The translations under genes were made by a program, and so were the position numbers. A stretch of 48,589 nt of DNA, from contig CANRKX010000008.1 of assembly GCA_947631325.1 (NCBI GenBank), positions 1 to 48,589 on the forward strand, in the 5' to 3' direction. Shown in pieces: positions 12,112 through 39,988 of this stretch. Below the pieces are notes generated by a model that did not search any database, was not told the origin of the DNA, and saw nothing but the letters and a program-made list of their open reading frames with translations. The stretch comes from an uncultured Clostridia bacterium (GTDB lineage Bacteria > Bacillota > Clostridia > Christensenellales > Borkfalkiaceae). Within the stretch, counting starts at the first letter, position 1. Every line of letters begins with the position of its first letter.

Positions 12112-12115
12112 GAAA

Positions 12116-13576: not shown

Positions 13577-13579
13577 GTT

Positions 13580-17767: not shown

Positions 17768-17814
17768 AAAGTATGAGGAAAAATTCTCAATTGTTTTTTA
17801 CGGAGAAAAATCAA

Positions 17815-20496: not shown

Positions 20497-20519
20497 GGCT
20501 GCGCAGGAGAGAATATAAA

Positions 20520-23908: not shown

Positions 23909-26005
23909 ATGCAACTTCATCCCCAAAAATTCAATAGAATGACGCTTATCAAAGCCGCAGTGTGCCTTGTTGTTATACTGACGGTCTTGATAACGAGCGC
24001 AATATCCATCGCCTTTATGTCCAAGAGCGCGGCGTACGACGCGGCTTTGGGCGCATATGAGGGGTGGATAGGCGACCTCGCCGCGGCAAAGGGCGAGAGC
24101 GTTAAAAATTTGGAGAACGGCAACCACTCGGGCGACGAGTATTCTGCTGTTTTTGGCGGAGAGTTCGGCGGTTTTGAGGGCGTTGCCGTTGTCGCCGAAG
24201 CGAGCGGCGGGCGGGTCGTCTACTGTTCAAGCGATTTGCTTTCGGTGGATCAATTGCTGTCCGATAAAGGCTTTTCCATACCCGAAGATTCGTCCGTTCA
24301 AGTTCTGACTTTGGGCGATAAAGACTATGCTTTTGCGGCTAAAAAGGTCGGCGAACGTACATACATATGCGGATTTATCGATTTTTCTGCGTCGGCGAAA
24401 GCCATGAAAAATCTCAATTCATCGCTGCTCACCATTTCGATTTTTTCGGTCGTGCTTGTCGCCTGCGCTTTCATAACATACATAGTTATGACGGGGCTCA
24501 ACGAGCGCGGTCACCGCTATCGCTATAAATTCACCACCGATTCCGAGGGCAGAATTGTCCGCTCCAACGCAATGTTTAAGGAGGACTTTCCTCAAACCGT
24601 GCGCATCCACGACAATCTTGCGCACTTCGGCGAGGACAATTTAAGCGCAATCAAGCTCACCAATTTTGAGGAGGACGAGTTCATCGCCTGCTCGACGAAA
24701 AAACTTACAAACGGCAATTTCCGTCTGAAAGGCGACAAGCTCCACATGCCCTATAACTCGCAGGCAACCCAGCCGCGCGAGGTGATGAGGGAGGCGTACA
24801 CGGCTCTCCTTCCCAAGGGCAAAGCCTTTTTGATTGGTCGCATTTCCTTCGATAATCTTCACAACATAAAGGAAATGTTCGGGCGCGAATTTGCCGAAAC
24901 CGTTCACGGCATTTTGTACGCCAAAGTCTCAAAAATATTCACATATGTTTACGATTTGGACCTCTATCAGCTCGGCGTGCTCTTCCCCAACGGCAAAAAT
25001 TACGAAGCCCTTTTGCAGGATTTGCGCGATTACGTCAACGATTGGAACGAAGCTATAAAAATAGAGAGCAACGTCGTCATCATAAGCGTCAAGTGCGGCT
25101 TTGCAATCTGCGATAATTACATGGCGGAGCGCAATTTCGACTATGCCATGACCGCGGCAGAGGCGGCGTTAAAGCGCGCCACCGAGGATAAACTTAAAAA
25201 TTATTATGTATTCCACGGCACCGAAATCAAGCATTACGCCAAGTATTTCGTCAATTACGATATCCGCCAGATGCTCGCGGACAACATGTTCGAAATGGAG
25301 TATCAGCCGCAGTATGGCATAAAAGAGGGCAGAATAGTGGGCTTCGAAGCCCTCTTCCGCGTCAAAAAGTCGGCGAATATGACGGTCAATATCTTCGACC
25401 TCATCTCTTATGCCGAGCGCACGGGCAACATGGTCGTCTTGGGTGAATTTATTTTTGATACGGCAATGCGCTTTGCAAAGCGAGTGGAGGATAAAAACGT
25501 CAAAGTTTCCCTCAACGTGTCGCCCATTCAGCTCATGCAGGCGGGCTTTTGCGATAACTTCCTCGCGATATTCAACAAGTATGAATTAAAACCGGGCGTC
25601 ATCTGCGTCGAAATCACGGAATCCTTCCTCGTTCAGAACTTCGACGACGCCGTCCAAAAGCTCGAAATTCTCCGCGAACACGGCATTGAAGTGCACCTTG
25701 ACGACTTCGGCACCCGCTATTCGTCGCTTCTCTATCTCAAAAAACTGCCCGTCTCGGTCATCAAAATCGACAGGGAATTTATCATAGATATCAAGGAAAA
25801 CGACCTCGACAAATCCATTGTCGAAATGATTGTCAAAATCTGCCGCACCCACGACTTCAAGTGTATAACCGAGGGCGTGGAAACGCGCGAGCAGTACGAC
25901 GTGTTGAAGTCGCTCGGCGTCGATATAATACAGGGCTGGATAATCGGCAAATCGGCGCCTGCGGACATTGCGGCGCGGCTCATCGATACTTTCGTATTGA
26001 AATAA
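23909..26005 (+). CDS. membrane EAL-domain c-di-GMP phosphodiesterase with degenerate GGDEF
   Basis: A 698-residue protein. Helices at about 11-34 and 167-190 enclose an extracytoplasmic sensor. A GGDEF-like region (about 300-420) lacks the GGDEF motif (FPNGKNY in its place), so it is not a cyclase. The EAL domain (about 450-690) keeps the residues needed for hydrolysis: GFEALFR, LNVSPIQL, VEITES, HLDDFGTRYSSLLYL, VIKIDREF, ITEGVET and IQGWIIGK. It should linearise c-di-GMP. It follows the hybrid kinase by 18 bp. Confidence 0.92.
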   Translation: MQLHPQKFNRMTLIKAAVCLVVILTVLITSAISIAFMSKSAAYDAALGAYEGWIGDLAAAKGESVKNLENGNHSGDEYSAVFGGEFGGFEGVAVVAEASGGRVVYCSSDLLSVDQLLSDKGFSIPEDSSVQVLTLGDKDYAFAAKKVGERTYICGFIDFSASAKAMKNLNSSLLTISIFSVVLVACAFITYIVMTGLNERGHRYRYKFTTDSEGRIVRSNAMFKEDFPQTVRIHDNLAHFGEDNLSAIKLTNFEEDEFIACSTKKLTNGNFRLKGDKLHMPYNSQATQPREVMREAYTALLPKGKAFLIGRISFDNLHNIKEMFGREFAETVHGILYAKVSKIFTYVYDLDLYQLGVLFPNGKNYEALLQDLRDYVNDWNEAIKIESNVVIISVKCGFAICDNYMAERNFDYAMTAAEAALKRATEDKLKNYYVFHGTEIKHYAKYFVNYDIRQMLADNMFEMEYQPQYGIKEGRIVGFEALFRVKKSANMTVNIFDLISYAERTGNMVVLGEFIFDTAMRFAKRVEDKNVKVSLNVSPIQLMQAGFCDNFLAIFNKYELKPGVICVEITESFLVQNFDDAVQKLEILREHGIEVHLDDFGTRYSSLLYLKKLPVSVIKIDREFIIDIKENDLDKSIVEMIVKICRTHDFKCITEGVETREQYDVLKSLGVDIIQGWIIGKSAPADIAARLIDTFVLK

Positions 26006-26148: not shown

Positions 26149-27549
26149 ATGCTTTTAGGTCTTTGCGCGACCGGGCTCAACACCGGTGTAACAATTTTTT
26201 TGACCATATTGATTTTGTTGCTCTCGGGAGTGGCGATTTTCTTTCTGTATCGCGGCGTCAGAAAGGATAGAAGCCGCTACATAAACAGCAAGCTTCAGAC
26301 GGGCGAGCTCGACAAAGAGGGCTTCGACGAGTTCTTGAAAAAACGCTTCGCGTCGGCTAACAAAAACACCCATTTCACCGTGTATTATATTGAAGTTAAC
26401 GACGCCAAGCCCATGCAAGAATCCTTTGGTGAAAAGCTCTTCGGCAGTGCCATGGCGACGTTGCAAGACAGATTTTATAAGCTCTTTCCCCGCGGTTCGC
26501 GCGTGTGCATATATGAGTATGACTCAATCGTCGTTTACACCGAGGAGGATATGACCAAAAAGGAAATCTCCGACATTTCCGCCTTCTGCCTTGTCGAGGG
26601 TCACAAGCCAATCGGCAGTGCAACGCGCGTCAAGCTCGAACTCGACCTCAATATGGGCGTGTGCAGTTATAACGCTTTCAGCGCAGATTTCGACACCTTC
26701 AAACAAAACCTCGAGCTCGCCCTTGCAACCTCCAAAAGGAGCGGTCTTAATAAGTTCACCGTCTATTCGGCAGACCTTATGGGCAGCGACACGGAGGAGT
26801 ATAAGTATTATCAAGAGATTAAGTCGGCAATCGAAGCCAACGAATTCACCCTTTATTATCAACCCATCTTCGATTTACAGCAAAACCGCGCGATTGCGTA
26901 TGAAGCCCTTTTGCGTTGGAACCACAAGACTCTCGGCGTCCTTTCGCCCGCAAAGTTCCTCTCGATTATAGAGCAGTCGGGCGATATAAATTGGGTCGGA
27001 ACTTGGGCTTTCGAGCAAATGCTCGTCACCTATGAACGCCACAAGTCCGAGCACCCGCAGGACGACGTGATTTTCAGTATGAACCTCTCGCCCAAACAGC
27101 TCATGAACCCCAAACTTGTCGAAGATTTGCGCCGAATTCTCAAAAAACACCGCGTTTCGGCGGGCGAAGTGTGCCTTGAAATCGTCGAGTTCGCCATGTT
27201 CGATAAGGTTCAACAGGTCAAAGATAACATTCAGCAACTCACGCAAAGCGGCTTCAAAATCGCCGTTGACGACTTCGGGCTTGAAATGAGCTCGCTCAAA
27301 ATGCTTGAAAATTTGCAGTTCAACTTCGTCAAACTCAACAAGAGCTTTATCGAGCAGTCGCAGGACGACTTTTTGATTGGCGGCGTCGTGGACGCCCTCG
27401 TCGGCTATTCCGAAAAGAAGAACTTCCAAATTGTCGCGTCGGGAGTGGAGGACGACGTAACCCTTGAATTTTTGAAAGAGCGCAAAATTCACTGCGGACA
27501 GGGTTATTTCTTCGGCAAACCCCAACCCCCCGAAGAATACGGTCTGTAA
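26149..27549 (+). CDS. EAL-like protein, probably catalytically inactive
   Basis: A 466-residue protein with an N-terminal membrane helix (about 8-40), a degenerate GGDEF-like region (about 70-205, no GGDEF) and an EAL domain (about 220-460). EAL (YEALLRW), LNLSPKQL-type (MNLSPKQL), LEIVEF and AVDDFG are kept, but two catalytic positions differ: the KxDR segment reads KLNKSF (Asp to Asn), and EGVE reads SGVE (Glu to Ser). Such EAL domains usually bind c-di-GMP without cleaving it, so this may be a receptor. It has its own upstream region with repeats and is the last gene of the block. Confidence 0.85.
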   Translation: MLLGLCATGLNTGVTIFLTILILLLSGVAIFFLYRGVRKDRSRYINSKLQTGELDKEGFDEFLKKRFASANKNTHFTVYYIEVNDAKPMQESFGEKLFGSAMATLQDRFYKLFPRGSRVCIYEYDSIVVYTEEDMTKKEISDISAFCLVEGHKPIGSATRVKLELDLNMGVCSYNAFSADFDTFKQNLELALATSKRSGLNKFTVYSADLMGSDTEEYKYYQEIKSAIEANEFTLYYQPIFDLQQNRAIAYEALLRWNHKTLGVLSPAKFLSIIEQSGDINWVGTWAFEQMLVTYERHKSEHPQDDVIFSMNLSPKQLMNPKLVEDLRRILKKHRVSAGEVCLEIVEFAMFDKVQQVKDNIQQLTQSGFKIAVDDFGLEMSSLKMLENLQFNFVKLNKSFIEQSQDDFLIGGVVDALVGYSEKKNFQIVASGVEDDVTLEFLKERKIHCGQGYFFGKPQPPEEYGL

Positions 27550-27929: not shown

Positions 27930-27958
27930 TTGACAATTCATTTCAAAAGTTATAAAAT
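27930..27958 (+). promoter_or_regulatory. SigA-type promoter for the first exported-protein gene
   Basis: TTGACA (27930-27935), 17-bp spacer, TAAAAT (27953-27958), 43 bp before the start codon at 28001. Confidence 0.7.
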
Positions 27959-28000: not shown

Positions 28001-28741
28001 ATGAGTAGATGGCTTAAACGTCTCAAAATGATGCGCATTTCCAAATATGCCATCGTCATTTGCCTGTTGCTTTCGATAGTATTTGCGGGTTTCACGGTTT
28101 ACGGTGCAAACACGGGCAACTTCAATATTTACGTTCAGGAATCCGACGTAAGCCTTGCCGTGTACATGAAGGACGACAAGTCCGACTTGGGCGCGCATCT
28201 TTCCGTACCGACCGTTGAAGGTATGCACGATAGTACTTTTACAAGATTACCCCAAGATATAACGTCTCACGGCACGCCCGAAAAGGGTCTCGGCACCAAA
28301 AACGACCCTTACAAATATTATCTTGCATTTTCGGTTTGTGTAGTGAACCAATCCGAGCGTGCTATTGATTTGATTACGGAATTGACCGTGTCCGATTCGC
28401 GTGACGGAGAGGACGGCGGCAAGGTAATCGGCGCAATGCGCGTCGCGCTTGTAGAGGGCGACAACCCTTTGGATACGGCGAAAATTTACGCCCTGCCCGA
28501 AGCCAATGAGGAAAATCAAGCCGAACTTGACGCGGGCTTGGCAGAACACGGCAGATATCCGTCCGAAACTATAGATTTCATTTCAACTGTTCAGATATTT
28601 AATGAAACGTTCAAAGATATTGGAGCGGGAGAGGAAAGGAAGTTTACGATTGTAATATGGCTTGAGGGTTGTGACGCGGAGTGCAAGGACGCGATTTTCG
28701 GTGCGAAAATGAAAATGCGCCTTGATTTTATCGGCGGTTGA
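28001..28741 (+). CDS. TasA/camelysin-like exported protein
   Basis: A 246-residue protein with a basic N-terminus, a hydrophobic helix (about 14-32) and then YGANTGNFNIYVQ, the layout of SipW-dependent TasA/camelysin precursors though without the usual AWF. The mature part looks all-beta and acidic. Near the C-terminus VIWLEGCDAECKDAIF closely matches the IWLEGTDGDCMNSIF segment of the next gene's product, so the two belong to one family; the paired Cys here could form a disulphide. Starts at 28001 or at the Met codons at 28028/28031; the ribosome binding site is weak. A surface or fibre-subunit role is inferred. Confidence 0.7.
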   Translation: MSRWLKRLKMMRISKYAIVICLLLSIVFAGFTVYGANTGNFNIYVQESDVSLAVYMKDDKSDLGAHLSVPTVEGMHDSTFTRLPQDITSHGTPEKGLGTKNDPYKYYLAFSVCVVNQSERAIDLITELTVSDSRDGEDGGKVIGAMRVALVEGDNPLDTAKIYALPEANEENQAELDAGLAEHGRYPSETIDFISTVQIFNETFKDIGAGEERKFTIVIWLEGCDAECKDAIFGAKMKMRLDFIGG

Positions 28742-28811
28742 TTGAGGTTTTAACGGCGATAGCCGTGAAAAAATAAAAATTTTAAAAAATTTTTAAGGAG
28801 AAAGGAAAAAT

Positions 28812-29678
28812 ATGAAGGCATCAAAAAAACTGATCGGTGCAATCGTTGCACTGGTCGCAGCATTGGCAGTCTCTGTCGGCTCAACTTTTGCATGGTTCAC
28901 CGAACAGAATACCGCCAAAGTAAAGGCAATCACGTTGCAAGTTCAATCTGCAACGGGCAACCTGTACATAGGCACGGAAAGCGGTAAACTTGGTCAGTCT
29001 CCCGTGACGATTGATACATCATCTGTTGAATCAACGGGGCTGAAAGACGTTACCACAGATGATTATGGCGTGTCTTTTAAAGATCATAGTAAAGGGAGTG
29101 CTACTACTGGTTTCCTGTCGTTTGACTTGTATTTTATGTCGACAACTGCTGTAAACCTGTATTTGTGCTCAGGATCGACGATTACTTGCTCACCCAATGC
29201 AAATAATGATATGGTTATTAACGATACAACTGTTCGCTCAAAAATTGCTAATAAATATGGAACAGAAATTACGGACGGCAAAATTGCGGCGAATGCAGCA
29301 AACGCGGCGCGCGTTGCATTCCTTGATAATGATGGAAGTCCCGTAGCCAGCAACGTTAATATTTGGGATCCTAATAAGGATGCAGGATACAGTACTGGTA
29401 ACCTTGCCGCCGATTATGAGACATATGTTAATGACACCTCGAATGGTTGGCCCGAATCTGGTGCCGCTGCGAGCTCAGTAACCAGCGATTTTGCTTTGTG
29501 CACAAGCGCAAAAGATGCAGGTACGGGTACTGTTATAATTGAATTGGTAGCTAATGTAGAGAAAAAGATTACTGTTAAGATTTGGCTTGAAGGCACCGAC
29601 GGTGACTGCATGAACTCCATTTTCGAGGATACGATTGTAACCACGCTTGTTTTTGCGGGCATAGAGGCTGGAGATTAA
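28812..29678 (+). CDS. SipW-type exported protein (TasA/camelysin-like)
   Basis: A 288-residue protein with a clear SipW-dependent signal: KASKK, a hydrophobic run (about 8-24) and GSTFAWFTEQNTAKV. The mature chain is Ser/Thr/Asn/Ala-rich and predicted beta, as in fibre-forming TasA or camelysin. IWLEGTDGDCMNSIF near residue 255-270 is shared with the upstream gene. AAGGAGAAAGG is a very strong ribosome binding site, stronger than its neighbours', suggesting high expression as expected of a major subunit. A terminator follows 46 bp after the stop. Confidence 0.78.
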   Translation: MKASKKLIGAIVALVAALAVSVGSTFAWFTEQNTAKVKAITLQVQSATGNLYIGTESGKLGQSPVTIDTSSVESTGLKDVTTDDYGVSFKDHSKGSATTGFLSFDLYFMSTTAVNLYLCSGSTITCSPNANNDMVINDTTVRSKIANKYGTEITDGKIAANAANAARVAFLDNDGSPVASNVNIWDPNKDAGYSTGNLAADYETYVNDTSNGWPESGAAASSVTSDFALCTSAKDAGTGTVIIELVANVEKKITVKIWLEGTDGDCMNSIFEDTIVTTLVFAGIEAGD

Positions 29679-29723
29679 CAGTTTTGCCGTAACGTTTGTC
29701 GGCGAAAAACATAAATATTATTT

Positions 29724-29756
29724 GGCGGACGGTTTTAACACCGTCCGCCTGTTTTT
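29724..29756 (+). terminator. intrinsic terminator
   Basis: Perfect 10-bp stem (29724-29733 with 29740-29749), 6-nt loop, then TGTTTTT. It separates the two fibre-like genes from the peptidase operon. Confidence 0.88.
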
Positions 29757-29802
29757 ATTCCGCGTTTTTTGTTAATTTATATAAAAAACTTATTGTATAA
29801 TC

Positions 29803-29831
29803 TTGAAAAAATTATATATGTATGCTATAAT
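29803..29831 (+). promoter_or_regulatory. SigA-type promoter of the peptidase/AAA operon
   Basis: TTGAAA (29803-29808), 17-bp spacer, TATAAT (29826-29831), 35 bp before the start codon at 29866. Confidence 0.75.
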
Positions 29832-29865
29832 AATAAAAGAGAATTTATAAGGCGAACTATATAAT

Positions 29866-30906
29866 ATGGAAGAAGCTAAAAAACAAAAGACCAAAAAAAT
29901 AGTCAACATTGTTGTGAACGTTCTTGTATTCGTTATTCTTGCGGTTGCACTTGTGATAACGATATTCAGCATTTCGTCCTCGGGCAAGGGCTATACCGAA
30001 ATGTTTGGCAAGGCTTATGTTGCCGTACAATCGGGCTCTATGGATGCCGAAAAGCCCGCACAATATGCCGACAAGGTTGACGGCTTTAAAAAGAACGATA
30101 TCGTTATAATTAAAGTGCTTACCGACGAGGAAAAGCAACTACTTGAAGAGGGCGACGTAATTACTTTTTATACGGTTATAAATCAGCAGCGCGTTCTCAA
30201 CTCTCACCGCATTGTTGGTATTGCTTCAAATGACGTTGGTGCGCCTTTGTTTTACACGACGAAAGGCGACGCAAACCCCACTGAAGACGTATCAAAAGTT
30301 TTCCTCAACGACGTAGTTGGCAAGGTTGAGGGCAAAATCGGCGGTCTTGGTTGGTTTACTTCTTCCACGGGATTTTTGGTATGTATTGTAGTGCCGTCCT
30401 TCCTCGTCGTCATTTACTTTGCGTTTAACCTTATCCGCGAAATAATGAAACAGCGCGCCACCGCACAGATTTCCTCGAAGGAGCAGATGAAGGAGGAGAT
30501 TTTGGCGCAGTTGCGCGCGGAGGGCAAGCTCGCCGACGACAATCCACCCGAGGGTTCGCCCGCCGAGACGGAATCCGCCGAGGAAAAACCCGCCGAGGAA
30601 AAGCCCGCAGAGGTTGTGCCCGTTGCGGGTGAGACCGCCGAGCAAAAGCCCGCAGAGTCGGAACCTATCGAAAGTGTTCCCGTTGAATCTCAATCCGCCG
30701 AAAAGCAATCTTCCGATACCAAATCACCCGCTATCGCCAAAAAACCCGCCCAAAAGAAGAGCGGCGGCACGACAGCTGCAAAGCAATCAACCAACAAAAA
30801 ACCCGCCCAAAAGAAGAGCGGCGGCACGGCGACGGCAAAGCAATCAACCAACAAAAAGACCACTGCCACAAAGAAGAGCGGCGGCACGACGGGCAGCAAA
30901 AATTAA
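29866..30906 (+). CDS. sipW: SipW-type signal peptidase with long charged repeat tail
   Basis: A 346-residue S26B (ER/SipW-type) signal peptidase. Helix 1 at about 12-35; the catalytic Ser is in VQSGSM (~65), the His in NSHRIVG (~110), and the conserved TKGDAN follows (~132). These Ser/His enzymes process TasA/camelysin-like precursors. Helix 2 at about 167-190 returns the chain to the cytoplasm. The remaining ~150 residues are unusual: a Glu/Pro/Ala-rich acidic stretch (about 225-285) and then a Lys-rich tail of almost three 19-residue repeats (KKPAQKKSGGTTAAKQSTN). First gene of a tight operon with an AAA+ ATPase, a DUF2357-like protein and a second SipW peptidase. Confidence 0.88.
   Translation: MEEAKKQKTKKIVNIVVNVLVFVILAVALVITIFSISSSGKGYTEMFGKAYVAVQSGSMDAEKPAQYADKVDGFKKNDIVIIKVLTDEEKQLLEEGDVITFYTVINQQRVLNSHRIVGIASNDVGAPLFYTTKGDANPTEDVSKVFLNDVVGKVEGKIGGLGWFTSSTGFLVCIVVPSFLVVIYFAFNLIREIMKQRATAQISSKEQMKEEILAQLRAEGKLADDNPPEGSPAETESAEEKPAEEKPAEVVPVAGETAEQKPAESEPIESVPVESQSAEKQSSDTKSPAIAKKPAQKKSGGTTAAKQSTNKKPAQKKSGGTATAKQSTNKKTTATKKSGGTTGSKN
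30739..30903 (+). repeat. 57-bp tandem repeat, about 2.9 copies, inside the peptidase gene
   Basis: Units start near 30739, 30796 and 30853. The first two are nearly identical; the third has diverged in its first third. The unit is a multiple of three and encodes 19 residues rich in Lys, Ser, Gly and Thr. Confidence 0.85.
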
Positions 30907-30947
30907 GGCAATAGGCTGCGGTCAGTCCGCGGCTGTGAGGCATATAT

Positions 30948-32498
30948 ATGGGAGAATTTTCTCAATATTACGTTGACTTTTTATGGACCCTTTTGCAAAA
31001 TATTTGGGGCTTTATAAGTTCAATCGGTCTTGCAATCTACAAATTTTTCATACAGGACGTGGGCGCATACTTCGTCCAACTCGGGCAGTCGATTCACAGT
31101 TTCGACTGGCTAGGGTGGATTTGCCTTATCCTCATTTCGGCTGTCAACTCCGTCCTCGTGTTCTTCCTCGTTTACAGGCTTGTGCAGCTCATCCGCAGAT
31201 ATATCGTCTATCGCGGCAAGGAAGTGGAAAAGGACAAATTGCAGGAGGAAGTGGCAAGGCTGAGGGAGCAGTGCGACCAACTCGTGCGCGAAAAAGGGCA
31301 GATTTTTGCCTTGAAAATGGGCATTGACGGGCGTTATGAGATGCCGGGCGAAAAACAGCCCGCTTTGACCGACGGCTCGGAGAGCGCGGAGGAGACCCCC
31401 GCCGAGGGTGCAAGCAGATTCACAAAGCTCATCAATCTCGACGAAAAATACGCGCGCAATCCGCAGATTGTGTACATGGCGGAATCAGATATGTTGACGC
31501 TCGAAGGGGTTGTCAAGCGGTTTGTGAACTTCGCCGCGTCACAGCTTAAATTATATTACACAGAGGACACAATCCGCATATTCTTCGCGGGGCTCGCCAC
31601 CTCGAAAATCATAATTTTGGAAGGTATTTCGGGTACAGGTAAAACCAGCCTTCCCTATGCAATGGGCAAGTTTTTCAATAACGATACGGCGATAATCTCC
31701 GTACAACCCTCATGGCGCGACCGCGCGGAACTTATCGGATATTTCAATGAATTCACAAAGAAATTCAATGAGACCGACTTCCTCGCGAGCCTGTATGAGA
31801 CAACTCTCCGCGACGATCCCAACTTTATCGTCCTCGACGAAATGAACCTTGCAAGAATTGAGTACTACTTTGCCGACTTCCTGTCGATAATGGAAATGCC
31901 AGACGTGACGGAGTGGAAAATTGACCTCATTCCCGCACCATCGCCCACCGACCCCAAAAATATCGCATACGGCAAGCTTTTGGTGCCCCAAAACGTGTGG
32001 TTTGTCGGCACGGCGAATAACGACGACTCGACATTCACAATAACTGACAAGGTCTATGACCGTGCCGTCGCCGTCGCCCTCAACGAAAAGGCGCAGTTCT
32101 TCGACGCGCCCTTGACCGAAAGTTATAACTGCTCTTATGAGTATTTGCAGTCGCTGTTTGACAGCGCGCACCAGAATTACGCCATTTCCGAGGTCAATGA
32201 GGATAAGGTGAAGCTTTTGGACGGCTTTATCCGCGAGAAATTCAAAATTTCTTTCGGCAACCGTATCATGAAACAGCTGCGGCTGTTCGTTCCCGTCTAT
32301 ATGGCGGCGGGCGGCTCGGAGCTGTCGGGCATAGATTTCATAATCTGCACAAAAATCTTGCGTAAATTCAACGCCCTCAATCTGCCTTTCCTTTTGAAGG
32401 AGCTGAACGAGCTGTCGACATTCTTCGACAAGACTTTCGGCAAAGGCAATATGAAGCGGTGTATCGAATACGTCAAAGAACTTGAAAAAATGAACTGA
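30948..32498 (+). CDS. membrane-anchored McrB-like AAA+ ATPase
   Basis: A 516-residue protein. Two hydrophobic segments (about 10-40 and 55-85) anchor it; a short coiled coil follows (about 90-125). The AAA+ domain (about 205-420) is of the McrB/dynein-related kind: Walker A GISGTGKTSLP, the VQPSWRDRAELIGYFNEFTKKF segment typical of McrB, Walker B FIVLDEMNLARIEYYFADF, sensor-1 FVGTANNDDSTFT and Arg-finger candidate DKVYDRA. McrB motors normally translocate or remodel and work with an McrC-like partner; here the partner is the DUF2357-like gene 17 bp downstream. Being membrane-bound is unusual for McrB. The surrounding peptidase genes point to a cell-envelope job. Confidence 0.85.
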   Translation: MGEFSQYYVDFLWTLLQNIWGFISSIGLAIYKFFIQDVGAYFVQLGQSIHSFDWLGWICLILISAVNSVLVFFLVYRLVQLIRRYIVYRGKEVEKDKLQEEVARLREQCDQLVREKGQIFALKMGIDGRYEMPGEKQPALTDGSESAEETPAEGASRFTKLINLDEKYARNPQIVYMAESDMLTLEGVVKRFVNFAASQLKLYYTEDTIRIFFAGLATSKIIILEGISGTGKTSLPYAMGKFFNNDTAIISVQPSWRDRAELIGYFNEFTKKFNETDFLASLYETTLRDDPNFIVLDEMNLARIEYYFADFLSIMEMPDVTEWKIDLIPAPSPTDPKNIAYGKLLVPQNVWFVGTANNDDSTFTITDKVYDRAVAVALNEKAQFFDAPLTESYNCSYEYLQSLFDSAHQNYAISEVNEDKVKLLDGFIREKFKISFGNRIMKQLRLFVPVYMAAGGSELSGIDFIICTKILRKFNALNLPFLLKELNELSTFFDKTFGKGNMKRCIEYVKELEKMN

Positions 32499-32514
32499 TT
32501 TTTCGGGGGATTGA

Positions 32515-34131
32515 ATGGAAAAAGAATACTTGCAGAACTTTTTTGCAAAGTTTGAGGGCGGCGGGGAGCTTTATGACAACTTTCTTGCCGCGATGAAGGC
32601 GGGCAACAACAGCCTTTTCCATAACTTCGTGTCAGAGCATTTTGCCCTCGACGACGAGTGGATTTATAAAATAGAGGGCGGGCTGTTTTCCGTCGAGCTC
32701 ATCGCCCGCAACCCGAGGAGATTCATAAAGGAACAGGAGGACATTGTCGACGTCGAGCGCGCCAAGCGCACGAACGCAAAGACGGTGCGCCACCTGTCGT
32801 CGCATACGCAAAATATTCAGGCGATAACAAAGGACAACGTCCGCCCCAAAAAGGTGCTTGTCAGCGAGATTGACGAGGATATCGCCATTTATGAAAACAG
32901 GTTTGTCTTTGCGCTTATCGAGCGGCTGTCGCAGTTTGTCGAGCACCGCTATCGCGATATCGAGGACAAGGCAAAGAACTTCGACAACACCAATTTGTCG
33001 CTTCGTTCGGCGTTCAACTTGGGGCAGAATGAGTTTGAGTGCAGTCTCGACATAAAGGTCAAGGAGCCCTCGCGCGACGTCGAAGCGGGCGAAAGATTGA
33101 CCGAGCTGTTGGGCAAGATAGAGACAATAAGAAAACGCCTGCAAGTGCTCAAAAGCACGGATTTTTATCGCGAGCTATCCAAGACGAAACTCGTCAAACC
33201 GCCCATTCAAAAGACCAATTTGCTGCGCATGAACGTCGACTATCGCAACTGCTATCAACTTTGGCTGTTCATTTCGGCGTATACAAACGTGGGGTATAGC
33301 GTTGACGTCACCGAAAAAAATCTGCCTGTCGAGGGCGATTATTTCGACGATTTGACCGTCGTGACAGCACTTGCCGTGCAATCGCTCGTCAACGACGGGG
33401 TGCTTCGCCGCGAAGATTACGACGCCATTTCCGCAACTAAAAAGAGCGAGCGCGACTATAAAGTGGTCACGAGCTATAAATATGTGCCCGATTTCGGAGC
33501 GGACAAGTCAAAACAGCAGGGCGAGGATGCAGTGAATGAATATTACTTCCGCCAGATGCGCAATGAATTGGTGCGCGCGACGAAAAAGCGCAACGAAATC
33601 GCCGAACAGAAGGAGCTGGATTTCAACTTTTCGCACTTCTATAAGTCGATTGCCAAGATAAACGGCGAAATGTATAAGGACGTCATAAAGAGCGAAATGC
33701 CCGTCCTCCCCAAAGGCAGAACGGAAATTCAGAAGAAAGAACAGGCAGTTAAAAACCAAAAGGTGCTGTTAAGGCGTTACGCGCAGCTATCCAAATTGCA
33801 GAAGAGCGACTTTGAAAAGACGCTTAAAATGGAAAAACGCGAACTTTTGAAGCTTGAAAAGCTGCAAAAGGAGCTCGATAAGGCAAAGAAACGCCGCGTC
33901 GATAAAATCGAAGCGGACAAAAAGAAGAAGGCGAAACTCAAAAAAATTGCAGACAGAGAGAAGCAGGCAATTCAGTCTGCCGACGCTTACGAGCGCGAAC
34001 TCCGCGGTCTCGACGCGGCGAAAATCGCCCAAAAGGAAGAGGAACAGCGTCAGCGCCGTGAGGAAGCGAAGCGTGCGCGCGAGCTTAAAAAACTGCAAGA
34101 ATTGAAAGAAAAATACGATGGAGAAGAATAA
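32515..34131 (+). CDS. DUF2357/McrC-like protein with basic coiled-coil C-terminus
   Basis: A 538-residue soluble protein. The middle part (about 95-180) has the DUF2357 look: RHLSSHTQNI, then PKKVLVSEIDEDIAIYENRFVFALIERL, the strand-and-helix pattern seen in McrC-like partners of McrB ATPases. The PD-(D/E)xK nuclease that McrC-type proteins carry is not recognisable. Instead the last ~150 residues are an almost uninterrupted Lys/Arg/Glu/Leu coiled coil. GGGG precedes the start. Its end overlaps the next peptidase gene by 14 bp. It may act as an adaptor for the AAA+ motor; function unknown. Confidence 0.7.
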   Translation: MEKEYLQNFFAKFEGGGELYDNFLAAMKAGNNSLFHNFVSEHFALDDEWIYKIEGGLFSVELIARNPRRFIKEQEDIVDVERAKRTNAKTVRHLSSHTQNIQAITKDNVRPKKVLVSEIDEDIAIYENRFVFALIERLSQFVEHRYRDIEDKAKNFDNTNLSLRSAFNLGQNEFECSLDIKVKEPSRDVEAGERLTELLGKIETIRKRLQVLKSTDFYRELSKTKLVKPPIQKTNLLRMNVDYRNCYQLWLFISAYTNVGYSVDVTEKNLPVEGDYFDDLTVVTALAVQSLVNDGVLRREDYDAISATKKSERDYKVVTSYKYVPDFGADKSKQQGEDAVNEYYFRQMRNELVRATKKRNEIAEQKELDFNFSHFYKSIAKINGEMYKDVIKSEMPVLPKGRTEIQKKEQAVKNQKVLLRRYAQLSKLQKSDFEKTLKMEKRELLKLEKLQKELDKAKKRRVDKIEADKKKKAKLKKIADREKQAIQSADAYERELRGLDAAKIAQKEEEQRQRREEAKRARELKKLQELKEKYDGEE

Positions 34132-34711
34132 GAAAAAGCACATTCTTTCGATTGTCGGCTTTTGTCTTTCGCTCGTCATTTTCGCCTTTGCGCTGTCGGT
34201 TTTCGTCATCACCCTCAACGCCCGCGCAAAAAATCGCCCCACGGAACTGTTCGGCTATTCGTTCGCAATCGTCGCCACGGGCTCAATGTATCCCGAAATC
34301 AACGTCGGCGAAATGATTATCGTCAAGAGTTGCGATATTTCGGAAATCTCTGTCGGCGAAAACGCAGTGTTTGTCGGGCTGAGCGGCGATTATAAGGACA
34401 AGTGCATTGTCCATAAGGTTGAAAAAATCGAGACGGTGGAGGACGAGACGACGGGGATTGACAGCGTCCACCTGATTACGAAGGGCGTGAACAACCCCGA
34501 AGCCGACTTTGAACCCGTCACGTCAAGCAATTTTATCGGCAAGGAAGTGTATCATTCGGCGGTTCTCGGCGCAATAATGCAGTTTTTGCAAAACCCGATA
34601 AATTGGCTGTACATTCTCGTGCTGTTGATAACGCTGTTTGTGGTGATTTACGCGATAAAGCGCATCGTCAAGTACTGCAAGCAACAGAAAAATGAAGAAA
34701 AAGAGCAGTAA
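34118..34711 (+). CDS. sipW: second SipW-type signal peptidase
   Basis: A 197-residue S26B signal peptidase. Helix 1 at about 9-32, catalytic Ser in VATGSMYPEI (~56), VGEMIIVKS, catalytic His in CIVHKVEKI (~97), TKGVNNPEAD (~128), helix 2 at about 165-187 and a short basic tail. It lacks the long repeat tail of the first SipW enzyme. The start codon lies within the last codons of the DUF2357-like gene (14-bp overlap, different frame), which couples their translation. It is followed by a perfect palindromic terminator. Two SipW enzymes in one operon may divide the five exported substrates between them. Confidence 0.88.
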   Translation: MEKNKKKHILSIVGFCLSLVIFAFALSVFVITLNARAKNRPTELFGYSFAIVATGSMYPEINVGEMIIVKSCDISEISVGENAVFVGLSGDYKDKCIVHKVEKIETVEDETTGIDSVHLITKGVNNPEADFEPVTSSNFIGKEVYHSAVLGAIMQFLQNPINWLYILVLLITLFVVIYAIKRIVKYCKQQKNEEKEQ

Positions 34712-34715
34712 AGTT

Positions 34716-34749
34716 AAAGCTGCGGCGGAATTAATTCCGCCGCAGCTTT
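34716..34749. terminator. 34-bp perfect palindrome, bidirectional terminator
   Basis: 17 bp (34716-34732) are followed directly by their exact reverse complement (34733-34749), A-rich at one end and T-rich at the other. It sits in the 55-bp gap between two convergent operons. Confidence 0.88.
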
Positions 34750-34766
34750 AAAAATTAAGGTTGAGA

Positions 34767-37106
34767 TTATGCCGTGGGCACCCATGGCGTATTTATAAAG
34801 TCTGCCGTGATATTCACGTCGTTCGTCGTTTGGGTGATTGAAGCCTTGTTGCTGACCGAAGGGGTGAGGGAGTTTGAATCACCTTCGCTATTATAAGCCG
34901 CGTGGAAAGTGCCGCCGTCGTCGCGATAGTAAAAGGTGACAATCGCACCGTTCCCGCCAAATGACAGCATGGTGCCTGTTTCGGCATACAGCGTCACCGC
35001 GTCGCCCGCGCTCACAATGAAGCTTCCGAAAGGTATATTTTTTTCGCCCGTGACTTCATTTTGGGTAATGGTAACGCCCTTATAGATAAAGTCGATTGCG
35101 GTTATTGTCTTTTCGGGGTCGGCGTGGTCGGTGTCCGATTCGGTATCCGCCGCACTTGAACCTATATCCAAATATATAAAGTCCGCGCCATAGCCCCTGT
35201 CGCCTATCAGATAATATTCAATATTTCCGTCTTTGATTTCTTCTTGACTTATTTCATGGCTAAAATAGAAAAGTACATTTCTGGGAACGCTTACTCTGAA
35301 TACTTCTGAAATTTCAACGTCATTTGAATATTCCCATGATTCATTTCTTTCAACTTTTGCTTTGAAGGGTTCATTTATGTTGGCGGAGTTACGTTTAACT
35401 CTTAATAAGACAAAACCTTTTAAACTTTCGTCAGAATTAAACATCAAAAATTTTGCCGTTCCTGCATGTGCAGGCTTAAACCACACAGCATTATTTGGCA
35501 AAAAGATTCCTTCGTCATATTGATAAAATTTCACGTTATCCATTAGTGCAGGATTATGTTGATTTGGTGCTGTAATATTTTCTCCGTTTTCGTCTAACGT
35601 ATTTCCGTTGCTGTCGCGAAATCCTTTACCGTAAGTCTTTCCCATCCAATTTACTTGTCCGTGAAATGACCAATCATTTAACTGTTCACTGAAAGTAGGT
35701 GAAATTGTAGAATCACTGAGCCAAAGGGAAGTGCTTAACGCAATTTTTAAAAATTTCTTTTTGACTCTGGTTTTATCTTTTACTGCTTGGTCTAATTCTT
35801 CTTGCGTGGGCACAATAGCTTGAATAGATGCAGGCAGAGCCGCAAATTCTTCTTTGCTTAATGGCGCAAATCCCATTTGAGAAGTGTAGACATTGGTTGA
35901 AATTCCATAACCGGTATCAATTTTATATATCCATGCAGGAGTAATATTACTTTCATTTGGGTCTAAATGTGAGCCGTCTTTATCGACCGTATACCAATTC
36001 GTTGAAGGTTCTTTCGGGTCAGTCAAGGGCTCGCCGAAAGCAATTTCTTTTGTATAATCAATTTTATTTTGATTTCCTATAAAATACCCGACATTGTTAT
36101 CCGAAATAAGTTCCCTTGCGTCAGCTCCCGTATATGTCGACCCGCTTCCGTCATCCGATTCGGGTATAATGGAAAATGGAATTTTATCTCCTCCCGCAGG
36201 AACAGGTTTATTGTTTTGTGTATCGATATTCGGCAGTCTCCAAGAGGGAGTAGAAGATTGTTTATTGTCAAGAATTTTTTCCAAACGTTTAACGAGACTA
36301 TCAACGTCGAAACTTGCGCCGAACGCCGAACCACTGCCGCCGGAGCCAAGCGCACCGCCGCCCGTCACGTTCTGATTGTTCATGGCGTCCTCGCTCAAAT
36401 TCCCCAAAATGCTGTTGACCGTCTTATAATCCGTCTTGCGCACGGCAAGGGTGCCGCCGATAACGCCGATAGACGACGCCTTGTTTGCCACATATCCAAT
36501 CGCAAGCCCCACAAACTTCCCGTCGTCGGCGGCTGTGCTGTATTTGGTGTTGGTCGAAGCCACTTCAACCGTCGGGTTGTCGAGAATAAAGTTTGTTATA
36601 TTCGATTGGTTTTCCTCGCCACTCTCCGCGCCCGTCAAACCGAACATTCCCACCGCGTTAGAAAATTCATATAAATCGCCTGCGGGCTTGTCCCTCAAAA
36701 CTTGTTTATTTGTCGATACAACGAGATTTGAAATTGTGTGTCCGTTGCCGTTAAAGGTGCTGTTGAAAGGGTGATCGACATTGCCGATAGGGGGGAGGAC
36801 GTAGCCTTGGGGCAAAGTAATGCTTTTGCCCAACTCAAAATAGGTGCCCGCCTTGATTTTGCCCGTGTTCTGAAGCCACGCGAGGTTGAAAAGGTGAATG
36901 GGGTCGGTTATGCCGTAAGGTCCCGTGGTTTTATCTTCCGATTGCACCTCGGTGCCGTCGCCGTATGCAAAGTAAGCCCCCGCCGAAGAGCCTTTCAAAG
37001 GCATGTCATAGCGTTTTGATGAAAACCAAGCAAAAGCTGTCCCTGCCGCAAACAGTGCGACAAAGACAGCAAGTATTAAGGTTATAATTCTCACTCGTAT
37101 TTTCAT
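34767..37106 (-). CDS. large SipW-type surface protein, paralogue A
   Basis: A 779-residue exported protein. The N-terminus has MKIRVR, a hydrophobic run and GTAFAWFSSKRYDM, a SipW-type signal. Residues about 40-260 contain AYFAYGDGTEVQSEDK, HLFNLAWLQNTGKI, FNGNGHTISNLVVSTNK and VGMFGLTG, a GLUG-like beta-helix pattern shared almost word for word with the next upstream gene. The centre (about 290-640) is unlike the paralogue and more A+T-rich. The C-terminal part again matches (AIDFIYKGVTITQN and following). No LPxTG or other wall anchor is seen. AGAAGG precedes the start. It is the last gene of a three-gene operon. Confidence 0.78.
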   Translation of the reverse strand: MKIRVRIITLILAVFVALFAAGTAFAWFSSKRYDMPLKGSSAGAYFAYGDGTEVQSEDKTTGPYGITDPIHLFNLAWLQNTGKIKAGTYFELGKSITLPQGYVLPPIGNVDHPFNSTFNGNGHTISNLVVSTNKQVLRDKPAGDLYEFSNAVGMFGLTGAESGEENQSNITNFILDNPTVEVASTNTKYSTAADDGKFVGLAIGYVANKASSIGVIGGTLAVRKTDYKTVNSILGNLSEDAMNNQNVTGGGALGSGGSGSAFGASFDVDSLVKRLEKILDNKQSSTPSWRLPNIDTQNNKPVPAGGDKIPFSIIPESDDGSGSTYTGADARELISDNNVGYFIGNQNKIDYTKEIAFGEPLTDPKEPSTNWYTVDKDGSHLDPNESNITPAWIYKIDTGYGISTNVYTSQMGFAPLSKEEFAALPASIQAIVPTQEELDQAVKDKTRVKKKFLKIALSTSLWLSDSTISPTFSEQLNDWSFHGQVNWMGKTYGKGFRDSNGNTLDENGENITAPNQHNPALMDNVKFYQYDEGIFLPNNAVWFKPAHAGTAKFLMFNSDESLKGFVLLRVKRNSANINEPFKAKVERNESWEYSNDVEISEVFRVSVPRNVLFYFSHEISQEEIKDGNIEYYLIGDRGYGADFIYLDIGSSAADTESDTDHADPEKTITAIDFIYKGVTITQNEVTGEKNIPFGSFIVSAGDAVTLYAETGTMLSFGGNGAIVTFYYRDDGGTFHAAYNSEGDSNSLTPSVSNKASITQTTNDVNITADFINTPWVPTA
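36712..36804 (-). repeat. conserved 93-bp segment of paralogue A (pairs with 38787-38879)
   Basis: By hand alignment 84 of 93 positions equal 38787-38879, without gaps. It encodes the FNGNGHTISNLVV region and is the longest near-identical stretch I checked between the two paralogues. Confidence 0.75.
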
Positions 37107-37134
37107 AAAAACAGCCTTCTCTCGTGCCTGAAAT

Positions 37135-37160
37135 TTTTATCTGAATTTGTTCAGATAAAA
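37135..37160 (-). other. second hairpin in the gap between the two paralogues
   Basis: A perfect 11-bp A+T-rich stem (37135-37145 with 37150-37160) and 4-nt loop, immediately downstream (on the - strand) of the G+C hairpin and in the leader of paralogue A. Confidence 0.6.
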
Positions 37161-37185
37161 GCCGCCGCAGCGCAGCTGCGGCGGC
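37156..37185 (-). terminator. hairpin, probable partial terminator between the paralogues
   Basis: Perfect 10-bp G+C stem (37161-37170 with 37176-37185), 5-nt loop, followed on the - strand by TTTTATC. No promoter is visible between it and paralogue A, so some readthrough is expected. Confidence 0.65.
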
Positions 37186-37219
37186 GCATTTAGCACAGAA
37201 ATAATTAATCAGAAAGGGT

Positions 37220-39184
37220 TTAATTTACAGGGTCTGTTAAGTCGGTATTGTTTTTCGGTGTTACGCTGTTTGAAGCGGAGCCCGTAACAGTCGGCTTAGT
37301 TCCATTGTATTCAACCGTAAAAGTGACGATATAGTTTTCGCCGCTACCGTTGACGGTACGCGAGTAGGTTATATAGGTGAGGGCGGCAATATTAAAGGTA
37401 ATGCGCACTTGCGAAGCCTTGTAGAGACTATTATTATAGATAAAGTTGCCCGCATTAACCTTGTTATCGTCATTTGAATCTTGGTCTATTGATACGCCGT
37501 CATAGACAAAGTCAATTGCCGACAACGCGCCTTCGACCTTTTCGCCCGAGTCTGCATTGCCGTCATTCATGCCCGTTATTGAAGCATAAACAATATTGAA
37601 ATTATTCGATTGTGAACCAATAACATATGCTCCTGGACCATAACCTTTTTCTTTACTTAAATCAATTAAAAACCCATATGCTCCATTTGTTTCATTATTT
37701 GGTATTGTTAGAGTACTAACTAATTCAGATGCGGTTTTATTATCTTTTACTTGGACTTCTTTATATCCGTTTTGGGTGCCGGTAATATATTTTTCTGGTT
37801 CGGCATATGTGCTGTTTGCAGAACCTGCTTTATAAACACCTATATTTCTTTCTGCACTAGCACTTAATATTACAAATATTTTACCCGTATTAGATACAAC
37901 ATTTGCTTTAATAGTGCTTGAGTTTATTTGCAAAGCAACGCCAGATAACGGTGTATCAGTATTTCCATTTTTATAAGTTCGTATTGTACCGTCTGGATTG
38001 TATACAGTCCATGAAGTATTTCCAAGTGTGGGACTGTTTTTATAATATAAGTCATGTTCGAGTTTTGTAATCTGATTTCCATTTCGGTCAACTACCATAT
38101 TTCTGATTTGTTCATATTCCTTATTTGAATTTACTTCGCCTAAGTTTATAGTCTGACCATCAAATATAAATGAATTGTATGTTTGTGAGCGTAATTCCGT
38201 TGCTTCCTTACCTGTTGTAAAAGATATACCGCCCAAGCCTAATTCATCATTTGTGCCGCTTGAATTTATCCATATATCCGCAGAAAATGAAACGACACCC
38301 TTGCTGGACGTAAAATAATTACTCATAGTGCTTTTATGATAACTATTTGTGCTATCAGTTAATATATTATATATTTCGTCAGGATAAAATACGCCTTTAT
38401 CGCCGCCTGTACTTGCTCCGTCGCCGCCCGTGACGGAATCCGTCTTAATATTTGGACCAATTGCGCCCAAAATGCTGTTAAAGGTAGTGTATTTATCGTT
38501 TTCGGGTATTTCACGCACGGCAATTTTGCCGCCGCGAACACCAATTGAAGAAGCCGTTCCGCCGACATAACCTATCGCCAATCCGACCGCATTGGGGTCT
38601 GAACCGCTATAAAGTGTATCCTGCGCAACATTATCTATGGTTTTTGTAGAAGCAACCTCAACTATCGGGTTTGTGAGAATAAAATTCTTTATATCGGACT
38701 TTTCACCCGTCATGCCGAACATTCCCACAGAATTGGAAAATGCATAATCGGAACCTGCGGGTTCGTCTTTTAAAATCTTTTTATTGGTCGATACAACGAG
38801 ATTTGAAATAGTGTGCCCGTTGCCGTTAAATATGCTGTTGAAAGGGTTTTCGGAATTGCCGATAGGGGGGAGGACATAGTTTTTTGACATTTCAATAATG
38901 TCTGCACCGAGTTCGAAATACGTGCCGTCATCGATTTTGCCCGTGTTCTGAAGCCAAGCAAGGTTGAAAAGGTGGGCGGGAGTAGTTATTCCATAAGGAC
39001 CAGTGTTTTTGTCTGCAGATTGCACCTCTGTGCCGTCGCCGTACGCAAAGTACGCGCTCGCCGTTCCGCCGCTGACGGACAGCCCGAATGACTGCGCCGT
39101 AAACCAAGCGAACACCGAGCCCGTGGCAAGTGCGGCAACCATAACTGCAAGTATTAAGCTGAAAATTTTAAATCTCAATTTCAT
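37220..39184 (-). CDS. large SipW-type surface protein, paralogue B
   Basis: A 654-residue exported protein with the SipW-type signal MKLRFK, hydrophobic run, GSVFAWFTAQSFG. The conserved N-terminal block (about 40-260) repeats AYFAYGDGTEVQSADK, HLFNLAWLQNTGKI, FNGNGHTISNLVVSTNK and VGMFGMTG of paralogue A. The centre (about 280-540) is different, rich in Asn, Ser, Thr and Tyr and clearly A+T-rich. The C-terminal AIDFVYDGVSIDQ block matches again. The start lies 7 bp after the stop of the upstream TasA-like gene. Shared ends with swapped centres suggest diversification of an exposed domain. Confidence 0.78.
   Translation of the reverse strand: MKLRFKIFSLILAVMVAALATGSVFAWFTAQSFGLSVSGGTASAYFAYGDGTEVQSADKNTGPYGITTPAHLFNLAWLQNTGKIDDGTYFELGADIIEMSKNYVLPPIGNSENPFNSIFNGNGHTISNLVVSTNKKILKDEPAGSDYAFSNSVGMFGMTGEKSDIKNFILTNPIVEVASTKTIDNVAQDTLYSGSDPNAVGLAIGYVGGTASSIGVRGGKIAVREIPENDKYTTFNSILGAIGPNIKTDSVTGGDGASTGGDKGVFYPDEIYNILTDSTNSYHKSTMSNYFTSSKGVVSFSADIWINSSGTNDELGLGGISFTTGKEATELRSQTYNSFIFDGQTINLGEVNSNKEYEQIRNMVVDRNGNQITKLEHDLYYKNSPTLGNTSWTVYNPDGTIRTYKNGNTDTPLSGVALQINSSTIKANVVSNTGKIFVILSASAERNIGVYKAGSANSTYAEPEKYITGTQNGYKEVQVKDNKTASELVSTLTIPNNETNGAYGFLIDLSKEKGYGPGAYVIGSQSNNFNIVYASITGMNDGNADSGEKVEGALSAIDFVYDGVSIDQDSNDDNKVNAGNFIYNNSLYKASQVRITFNIAALTYITYSRTVNGSGENYIVTFTVEYNGTKPTVTGSASNSVTPKNNTDLTDPVN
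38787..38879 (-). repeat. conserved 93-bp segment of paralogue B (pairs with 36712-36804)
   Basis: Partner of the segment in paralogue A; same orientation, about 2.07 kb apart, so recombination between them would delete or duplicate the DNA between. Confidence 0.75.
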
Positions 39185-39190
39185 TTTCGC

Positions 39191-39988
39191 TTATTTACCT
39201 ATCGTCAAAGTTATATCTTGATTGAAATCCAACGTGGTGTTGAGGGTGGCTTTATCAAATCCGCCCCCGTTTTGTGAAAGCATGTAGGAATAGAGGTTGT
39301 TGATATTATCGGGCAGATAGTCGAAGATAAAATAATAAGTTACTTGCTTTTCCGCCACAACACCGTTTTCGGTAATGAGAGTGACGGTGTCTTTCTCTAT
39401 ATTGCCGTAATCGGTTTGGTCGTTAAAAGCGACAAACTTTTGCTCATCACTCTTTTCTGCCAATGAAAAATCTTTGTTGTCGGCGCCGCTGCTTTTGGGC
39501 GTAACCTGCTGGAAGTAGACCACGTTTGACAGCAAGTTGTGTTCGGTAAACAGGTGGAAGGGCTTGTCGGCTTCGGCAACGTCCGCGCAAGTACATTCGT
39601 CGGCGTTAAGCGCCGTTTTGCTCTGCGGGTGGGCGGAAATCGTATAGTCGCCGTCGCTCAAATAGGTGACTTCCAATTGAATGAGTATAGCCGTCGTCGT
39701 GCCCGATATATTGCCCGTGCGGGGGGTGTACTTATCCATTTTACCCGCCGTGTCCGAGGAACCCAATATAATCTCATTGCCCTCCTTAAAGTCGGTGCCG
39801 TTTTCGGAGGTGGCGTGATACAGGGTGATTGTCAACTCAACGTCGCCGCTCGTCACCTGTGTTTCAAAGCCGTTTGTCTTTGCGGTGAGGTGGGAAACAA
39901 ACCACGCATATACCGCGCCGCCGGCAATTGCGAGGGCGAGAACGAGACAGACAATAGAAATTATCAGACGTGCGCGGTTGGTTTTCAT
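39191..39988 (-). CDS. SipW-type exported protein (TasA/camelysin-like)
   Basis: A 265-residue protein. KTNRAR, a hydrophobic run (about 8-25) and GGAVYAWFVSHLTAKTNGF form a textbook SipW-dependent signal. The mature chain is predicted beta; VTSGDVELTITLYHAT near residues 45-60 resembles the first strands of camelysin/TasA. Three Cys-adjacent positions (ECTCADV, ~130) might form a disulphide or bind metal. AAGGAT precedes the start. It is the first gene of the - strand operon and is followed by the two large paralogues, so it may be a shared subunit or anchor for them. Confidence 0.78.
   Translation of the reverse strand: MKTNRARLIISIVCLVLALAIAGGAVYAWFVSHLTAKTNGFETQVTSGDVELTITLYHATSENGTDFKEGNEIILGSSDTAGKMDKYTPRTGNISGTTTAILIQLEVTYLSDGDYTISAHPQSKTALNADECTCADVAEADKPFHLFTEHNLLSNVVYFQQVTPKSSGADNKDFSLAEKSDEQKFVAFNDQTDYGNIEKDTVTLITENGVVAEKQVTYYFIFDYLPDNINNLYSYMLSQNGGGFDKATLNTTLDFNQDITLTIGK

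Follow-up and report, generated by a model that had tools for sequence, protein, structure and literature searches.

A candidate SipW-linked surface-fibre locus with a membrane McrBC-type protein pair in an uncultured Clostridia bacterium

Introduction

Membrane McrBC loci with signal peptidases were named CoCoPALM in 2024 by Bell et al., in one paragraph that defers the topic and in which the signal-peptidase partners are thought to be pilus assembly factors (PMC11090510). In the part of the same paper that treats CoCoNuTs, those whose McrC lacks an active nuclease are stated always to have one closely associated (PMC11090510). Here we describe a locus in a contig of an uncultured Clostridia bacterium (Borkfalkiaceae; GCA_947631325.1, contig CANRKX010000008.1, forward strand), in which two SipW-type signal peptidases, SipA and SipB, enclose a membrane AAA+ protein and a McrC-like DUF2357 protein. 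The whole stretch that was analysed, 48,589 nt, is called the window below. The locus is probably a surface-fibre system of the CoCoPALM kind, SipW-processed and linked to cyclic di-GMP (c-di-GMP), with a membrane McrBC-type nucleoside triphosphatase (NTPase) taking part in its biogenesis. Gene content, conservation, SipW linkage, the linkage and layout of riboswitches in relatives, and the presence of a McrC N-domain with no visible nuclease domain were computed directly.

Results

Composition of the locus

The core operon consists of four plus-strand genes in the order SipA, AAA+, McrC-like gene and SipB, separated by 41 bp, then 16 bp, then a 14-bp overlap between the McrC-like gene and SipB. 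The first-pass annotation of the window had given this arrangement for 29866-34711, and a check of the open reading frames (ORFs) agrees with it in every detail; its identification of two SipW peptidases, a membrane McrB-like AAA+ and a DUF2357-like protein is backed by family scans. It had also counted five flanking exported proteins (S1 to S5), four of them with an A-W-F (AWF) signal. The motif follows a hydrophobic stretch in S2 to S5, and S1 is an exported protein without it. The genes are as follows.

28001..28741, + strand: S1, exported or anchored, without AWF; family present in 39 of 80 related loci
28812..29678, + strand: S2, SipW-type AWF protein; AWF signal, TIGR04088
29866..30906, + strand: SipA, a signal peptidase of the SipW type whose tail is long and charged; NF046067 5.7e-21, TIGR02228 3.3e-12; Ser, His and Asp kept in the alignment
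30948..32498, + strand: membrane-anchored McrB-like AAA+; hydrophobic segment, charged stretch, AAA+ domain with GTANNDDST motif
32515..34131, + strand: McrC-like DUF2357 protein with long predicted C-terminal helix; PF09823 6.5e-8; model matches McrC N-domain, no nuclease domain seen
34118..34711, + strand: SipB, second SipW-type peptidase; NF046067 2.9e-19, TIGR02228 9.4e-23; in the alignment Ser and His are conserved and V stands in place of the GD aspartate
34767..37106, - strand: S3, large AWF protein; AWF signal, homologue in related locus L032
37220..39184, - strand: S4, large AWF protein; AWF signal, homologue in related locus L031
39191..39988, - strand: S5, AWF protein; AWF signal, homologues in L031 and L032

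The peptidase models in this list are of the SipW/archaeal type, and the curated cut-off is passed only by the TIGR02228 score of SipB. Ser, His and Asp, including the GD aspartate, are taken here to be the catalytic residues of the Sip proteins. Upstream Sip genes have Ser and His in 60/60 cases, with Asp in 59 and Glu in one; downstream Sip genes have Ser and His in 61/61 and Asp in 37/61, the aspartate being lost in the other 24. A universal absence of the aspartate from SipB, suggested by nine of nine sequences in a first alignment, was overturned by this larger set. A SipW-type peptidase with Ser-His-Asp, as in the SipW-TasA operon, is thus present at the locus in SipA.

The AAA+ protein (516 amino acids) has a single clear hydrophobic segment at about residues 52-80, followed by a charged stretch and the McrB-like AAA+ domain. 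It matches PRK11331 (3.1e-4) and the PADLOC family PDC-M26A (1.6e-41), and a profile of nine AAA+ orthologues matches E. coli McrB structures at 5.8e-6. The signature GTAN-x-DDS is found in all nine aligned orthologues and, by pattern, in 79 of 80 related loci. The protein carries the NxD variant of the McrB signature motif that characterizes CoCoPALM: NNDD alone is ambiguous, and NxD is preferred over NxxD because a distant relative (L045) has NRDE and because S follows the motif. Pfam DivIC, a test for an FtsB-homologous membrane and coiled-coil part, scores only 0.064 on the window AAA+ and is absent among the 25 of 44 families listed for 48 members.

The McrC-like protein (538 amino acids) matches Pfam DUF2357 above the cut-off. 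Its model has the fold of the McrC N-domain (DUF2357), with the matches to McrC structures stopping at the end of its N-part; outside residues 43-256 the model is mostly helices and disorder, with one long helix at 404-535. DUF2357 together with this long predicted helix would make it a McrC homologue with a coiled coil, as described for CoCoPALM. An intact nuclease fold in this protein had been named beforehand as a sign against an envelope role. No PD-(D/E)xK or other nuclease domain is seen in it by family scans, the model or fold comparison, the fold search being short of a formal exclusion. Among 31 McrC-like members scanned there are no nuclease family matches, and DUF2357 is found in 18. 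A PF04411 search of the window's own genome gave no match and was uninformative, as its controls were silent too. Next to the core no nuclease was recognised among the window ORFs scanned (17773-39988), where unrecognised ones are possible. For the 123 neighbours of 30 related loci, the 25 most frequent Pfam families, out of 141, include no nuclease.

Of the flanking proteins S2 alone is recognised by TIGR04088, the model of the SipW signal (20.4 bits; cut-off 19). Its predicted structure comes closest to the TasA fibre, in a tie with two plant enzyme chains. Pfam searches of the S1 and S2 families gave, for each family, a single stray match confined to a single member.

Conservation and distribution

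A scan of genome contigs gave at least 548 AAA+ relatives, and the best 80 were taken as loci. The arrangement exceeds chance: the four-gene core is complete in 48 of these 80, and in 32 of the 35 for which at least 2 kb upstream and at least 5 kb downstream are present. The exceptions among the 35 are L072, where SipA was not found upstream, L093, which lacks both McrC and SipB, and L122, which lacks SipB. SipB follows the McrC-like gene within 1.7 kb in 51 of the 52 loci reaching that far, and SipA ends no more than 1.7 kb upstream in 51 of 58. The core order is kept in records titled Clostridia, Bacilli and Acholeplasma.

Because the 80 loci had been picked by similarity, a separate sample of the window's order was used, comprising 248 genomes, of which 54 have a match at E 1e-90, tandem types included. 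Its core set consists of 35 loci at E 1e-186 or better in 32 previously unused genomes, four equally strong loci seen earlier being excluded. A same-strand SipW match lies within 6 kb in all 35 (on both sides in 20, on one side in 15). The co-occurrence with SipW that the first-pass annotation had put forward as a check is found in related genomes. The system is rare in the phylum, where one of 199 genomes matches at E 1e-90, namely the window's own. Among 61 related genomes, AAA+ relatives are present in 24, and 10 loci are of the core type (8 of 37 genus members and two other families of the order); a SipW-type match lies on the same contig in 10/10.

In a tree of 43 AAA+ domains the SipW-linked core does not form one clade. 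Loci with a tandem AAA-McrC-AAA arrangement are nested inside it, and three plasmid relatives and four relatives with multiple transmembrane segments (multi-TM) fall outside. The tree is midpoint-rooted with several long branches, and the tandem group joins L037/L038 at only 91/88. The simplest reading would be a SipW-linked ancestor with SipW lost in the tandem group. The window's own genome has a second locus (G000:C2:5984-10630, L040) in which two same-family AAA+ genes flank a McrC-like gene, with no SipW match on the contig; L040 is nested in the SipW-linked part of the tree. A separate multi-TM AAA+/McrC-like branch is found near a SipW-type gene in L043:8732-15362 (about 5 kb away) and L046:2253-5085 (directly upstream), and no SipW-type gene is shown near the multi-TM loci L044 and L045. 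L065 (titled Tenericutes) and L066 (titled Omnitrophota) have identical match scores at the core, and one is perhaps a misbinned contig.

c-di-GMP genes and riboswitches

Six genes for signalling proteins lie upstream of S1 on one strand.

17773..18927, + strand: GGDEF protein of the diguanylate cyclase type; Pfam PF00990 4.8e-32
18976..20496, + strand: response regulator with HD domain (HD_5); Pfam Response_reg 1.8e-21, HD_5 8.7e-30
20412..20879, + strand: Hpt phosphotransfer protein; Pfam Hpt 7.1e-9
20900..23890, + strand: hybrid histidine kinase; Pfam HisKA, HATPase_c, Response_reg
23909..26005, + strand: membrane EAL protein; Pfam EAL 8.8e-61, expected EAL motifs present
26149..27549, + strand: second membrane EAL protein with weak GGDEF part; Pfam EAL 1.5e-62, GGDEF 2.6e-4, below cut-off

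Both EAL proteins were judged by the motifs that we take to be typical of the family; the second has SGVE in place of EGVE at one of them. Beyond the locus, the genome has no further EAL match and no further GGDEF match at E 0.001. Across the genus, EAL genes track the core, being present in 8/8 genomes with it and in 2/29 without it. The two exceptions are G007, where both EAL genes, S1 and the beginning of S2 lie at the end of a contig, and G012, whose EAL gene has nothing of the locus nearby. Across the 80 loci, the EAL-type cluster comprises 59 genes in 37 loci, and all four that were scanned match EAL.

The c-di-GMP enzymes at the locus led to the prediction of a riboswitch and to an Rfam search. 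RF01051 was found in 6/7 and 6/6 loci of the two first sets of relatives. A model, R1, built from nine of these riboswitches, gave 51 aptamers in 38 of the 80 loci (the nine training rows included), all on the core's strand; 32 of the 40 loci having 5.5 kb upstream carry the riboswitch. The gene after the aptamer is S1 in 30 cases, EAL in 7, SipA in 5, a C3 AWF protein in 1 and another gene in 8; in six of these last eight the part of the N-terminus inspected shows W-F or W-L as a signal, and in two that part ends too early. In the genus the riboswitch precedes S1 in five genomes, as the sole one found in G001, G007 and G026 and as one of two in G018 and G028. None was found in the window, L031, L032, L037-L050 or L136.

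The 3' strand of the aptamer doubles as the 5' arm of a terminator in 35 of 51 cases, versus 3.25 expected when the downstream sequence is shuffled in two-base blocks. This overlap is the layout of an ON-switch, in which ligand binding would prevent termination. An extra c-di-GMP-I riboswitch stands after SipB and before another AWF-signal gene in L094:13928-14003, L098:13935-14008 and L065:15113-15190, and several transcripts of the locus may therefore be co-controlled. The four-gene core is found with c-di-GMP-I riboswitches in records titled Paracholeplasma vituli (L070), Acholeplasma granularum (L094) and A. oculi (L098). The A. oculi genome paper makes no mention of McrB, c-di-GMP or a riboswitch (PMC4221730).

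Other features of the window

Three elements around S1, S2 and SipA point to separate transcription of S1-S2 and of the four-gene core.

27930..27958, + strand: sigma-70-like promoter about 43 bp upstream of S1; TTGACA-17-TAAAAT, 11/12; consensus match only
29724..29749, + strand: terminator-like hairpin between the subunit genes and the core operon; 10 pairs, then T-rich tail; consensus match only
29803..29831, + strand: promoter-like site upstream of SipA; TTGAAA-17-TATAAT with TG; consensus match only

The scan gave 16 promoter-like sites versus 9.6 in shuffled sequence, all of them consensus matches only. Between the second EAL gene and S1, in the gap where some relatives carry a riboswitch, lie two copies of a 91-bp repeat (27586-27676 and 27770-27860; 85% identical). 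An AdoCbl-II riboswitch (44004-44080; 49.1 bits) lies just 3' of an ORF that by eye resembles methionine synthase.

Discussion

A surface fibre of a sessile lifestyle is favoured over defence because SipW and AWF proteins are co-conserved with the pair, a nuclease is apparently lacking, no well-covered relatives occur in the viral, phage and plasmid sets searched, and the locus is linked to c-di-GMP. From these data we infer fibre formation, ring formation, nucleotide use, the step served by the motor and c-di-GMP control in the window. S1 to S5 would be exported, most simply via Sec, and the AWF proteins would be cut at A-W-F by the SipW-type peptidases and assembled outside, perhaps by strand exchange as in TasA. 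The membrane AAA+ may form a ring beneath the membrane that is turned on by the McrC-like protein, and its nucleotide hydrolysis could drive or gate a maturation or assembly step at the peptidases, such as subunit hand-over, extraction or release. The level of the system would be set by c-di-GMP, in many relatives via the ON riboswitch upstream of S1, and in the window's sublineage perhaps via the adjoining kinase, GGDEF and EAL genes and an ordinary promoter. The placing of the motor pair at the envelope in the first-pass annotation agrees with the McrBC-type pair lying beside SipW and AWF genes; that annotation had overlooked the link to c-di-GMP.

Several observations weigh against the fibre reading. 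The match of S2 to TasA is below the Z score that excludes a common arrangement, with two plant enzyme chains tying, and sequence profiles of S1 and S2 compared with solved sequences gave no solved relative. Fibres of BsaA in C. perfringens depend on SipW, and the genes listed for their operon include no AAA+ (PMC7395162), so a motor is dispensable in principle. Tandem loci retain the AAA+/McrC pair with no SipW nearby. Against the first-pass placing of the pair at the envelope, weaker AAA+ relatives mostly lack SipW, 2 of 19 contigs having one within 7 kb (matches above about E 1e-11 being left out), and plasmid relatives of the AAA+ domain adjoin AAA-domain, hypothetical and, once, helicase-related genes. 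The expectation that the pair lies beside SipW and not beside defence genes thus holds for the core relatives; it does not extend to the weaker relatives, nor to the plasmid relatives in their other gene company. L093, on a complete Mycoplasmatota chromosome (9281-13732), has SipA, AAA+, AWF proteins and a c-di-GMP-I riboswitch and lacks a McrC-like or SipB gene within 10 kb on either side, an unfiltered search for the McrC-like gene at E 10 giving chance-level scores only; AAA+ and McrC are therefore not invariably paired at the locus. The window has no c-di-GMP riboswitch (RF01051, nothing up to E 1), and in its order one is present in only 5 of 35 core loci, with 8 of 32 genomes having any. 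Among the 80 loci, control by a riboswitch is frequent without being universal; in the window's order, where the idea of a universal locus feature fails, it belongs to a minority. The core counts (48/80, with L093 lacking McrC) soften any "always" and leave the main inference standing.

The BsaA operon also bears on an unlikely alternative, that the AAA+/McrC pair is a membrane quality-control device or off-switch, which extracts or clears AWF precursors that have become stuck, or closes down the SipW peptidases, while fibres assemble motor-free. BsaA polymerises with the help of SipW, and the genes listed for its operon contain no AAA+ (PMC7395162); the pair sits between two peptidases in 48/80 loci (32/35 well covered), and the lost aspartate in 24/61 SipB genes looks as if one peptidase could be regulatory. 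However, the core has no recognised protease partner besides SipW, and two conserved peptidases around the pair fit a machine equally well. It is improbable, more so than quality control, that the locus is a membrane-tethered, CoCoNuT-like defence system using peptidase-processed effectors. The nearest named relatives are restriction systems, PDC-M26A is a PADLOC candidate (a literature search for PDC-M26 gave no paper), and the AAA+ domain has the plasmid relatives described above and one phage match (39.8% over 56% of the query). But the McrC-like protein has no visible nuclease domain, related loci carry c-di-GMP riboswitches and AWF proteins, and no PADLOC family, among 25 of 85 families listed, occurs in more than 3 of 123 neighbours. 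None of 264 matching plasmid records and neither of two phage records covers 80% of the AAA+, and the 96 pattern matches in viral contigs include no relative. A defence island was rejected as the main explanation on these viral, phage and plasmid searches and the PADLOC scan of neighbours. We give equally little credence to mere neighbourhood, in which SipW and AWF genes would make up a matrix operon resembling that of TasA, and unrelated membrane or nucleic-acid work would fall to the AAA+/McrC pair. The tandem loci, with the pair and no nearby SipW, and L093, with SipW, AWF proteins and AAA+ and no McrC, would fit it; the position of the pair between both peptidases, its 14-bp overlap with SipB in the window, and the gene order kept across records titled Clostridia, Bacilli and Acholeplasma argue otherwise.

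Within the fibre reading, a more specific proposal is held tentatively: the McrBC-type NTPase pair and the two SipW peptidases might form a nucleotide-driven strand-exchange fibre builder that acts at the membrane when c-di-GMP is high, in Clostridia, Bacilli and wall-less mollicutes. If true, it would parallel the TasA and chaperone-usher pathways in an energised form and be, to our knowledge, the first energised motor for SipW/TasA-type fibres. Acholeplasma are bacteria without a cell wall, and the system would be an unexpected surface system there. CoCoPALM loci were named earlier and their function left without test; the riboswitch linkage, AWF proteins and apparent lack of a nuclease shift a restriction-type motor out of defence. 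Direct tests of the question are now possible, among others in records whose titles name Acholeplasma and Paracholeplasma strains.

Comparison with described systems

McrBC type IV restriction, as in E. coli and T. gammatolerans, differs from the locus, which has no nuclease domain seen, a membrane anchor and peptidase neighbours. CoCoNuTs share NxD McrB relatives with coiled coils (PMC11090510); they differ in their associated nuclease, which was not recognised among the scanned neighbour genes of the window. The SipW-TasA and sipW-bsaA operons resemble the locus in having a SipW-type peptidase beside AWF-signal proteins and, in the operon description, a terminator near the subunit genes (PMC7395162); the predicted S2 model comes closest to the TasA fibre, in a tie with two plant enzyme chains. 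Unlike them, the locus has two peptidases, the AAA+/McrC pair, S1-family proteins and a c-di-GMP link.

CoCoPALM systems are described as an NxD McrB-like domain fused to a membrane and coiled-coil part, a McrC homologue with a coiled coil, and partners of the signal peptidase family (PMC11090510). The locus has the NxD domain, the McrC homologue and the peptidase partners, and its AAA+ carries a hydrophobic segment and a charged stretch. The locus fits that description, so its composition is not wholly undescribed, and the first-pass statement that no such system had been described does not hold. Linkage of the McrB/DUF2357 pair, SipW and a c-di-GMP riboswitch was not found described in the literature, as judged by the titles and abstract openings listed; of the papers that a search for CoCoPALM gave, only that of Bell et al. 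and its preprint deal with the system. The CoCoPALM paragraph names no substrates, peptidase pair or c-di-GMP link (PMC11090510), which the locus or its relatives have. Beyond Bell et al., the present analysis adds candidate substrates, counts of how far the locus is conserved, the pairing of two peptidases and the link to signalling.

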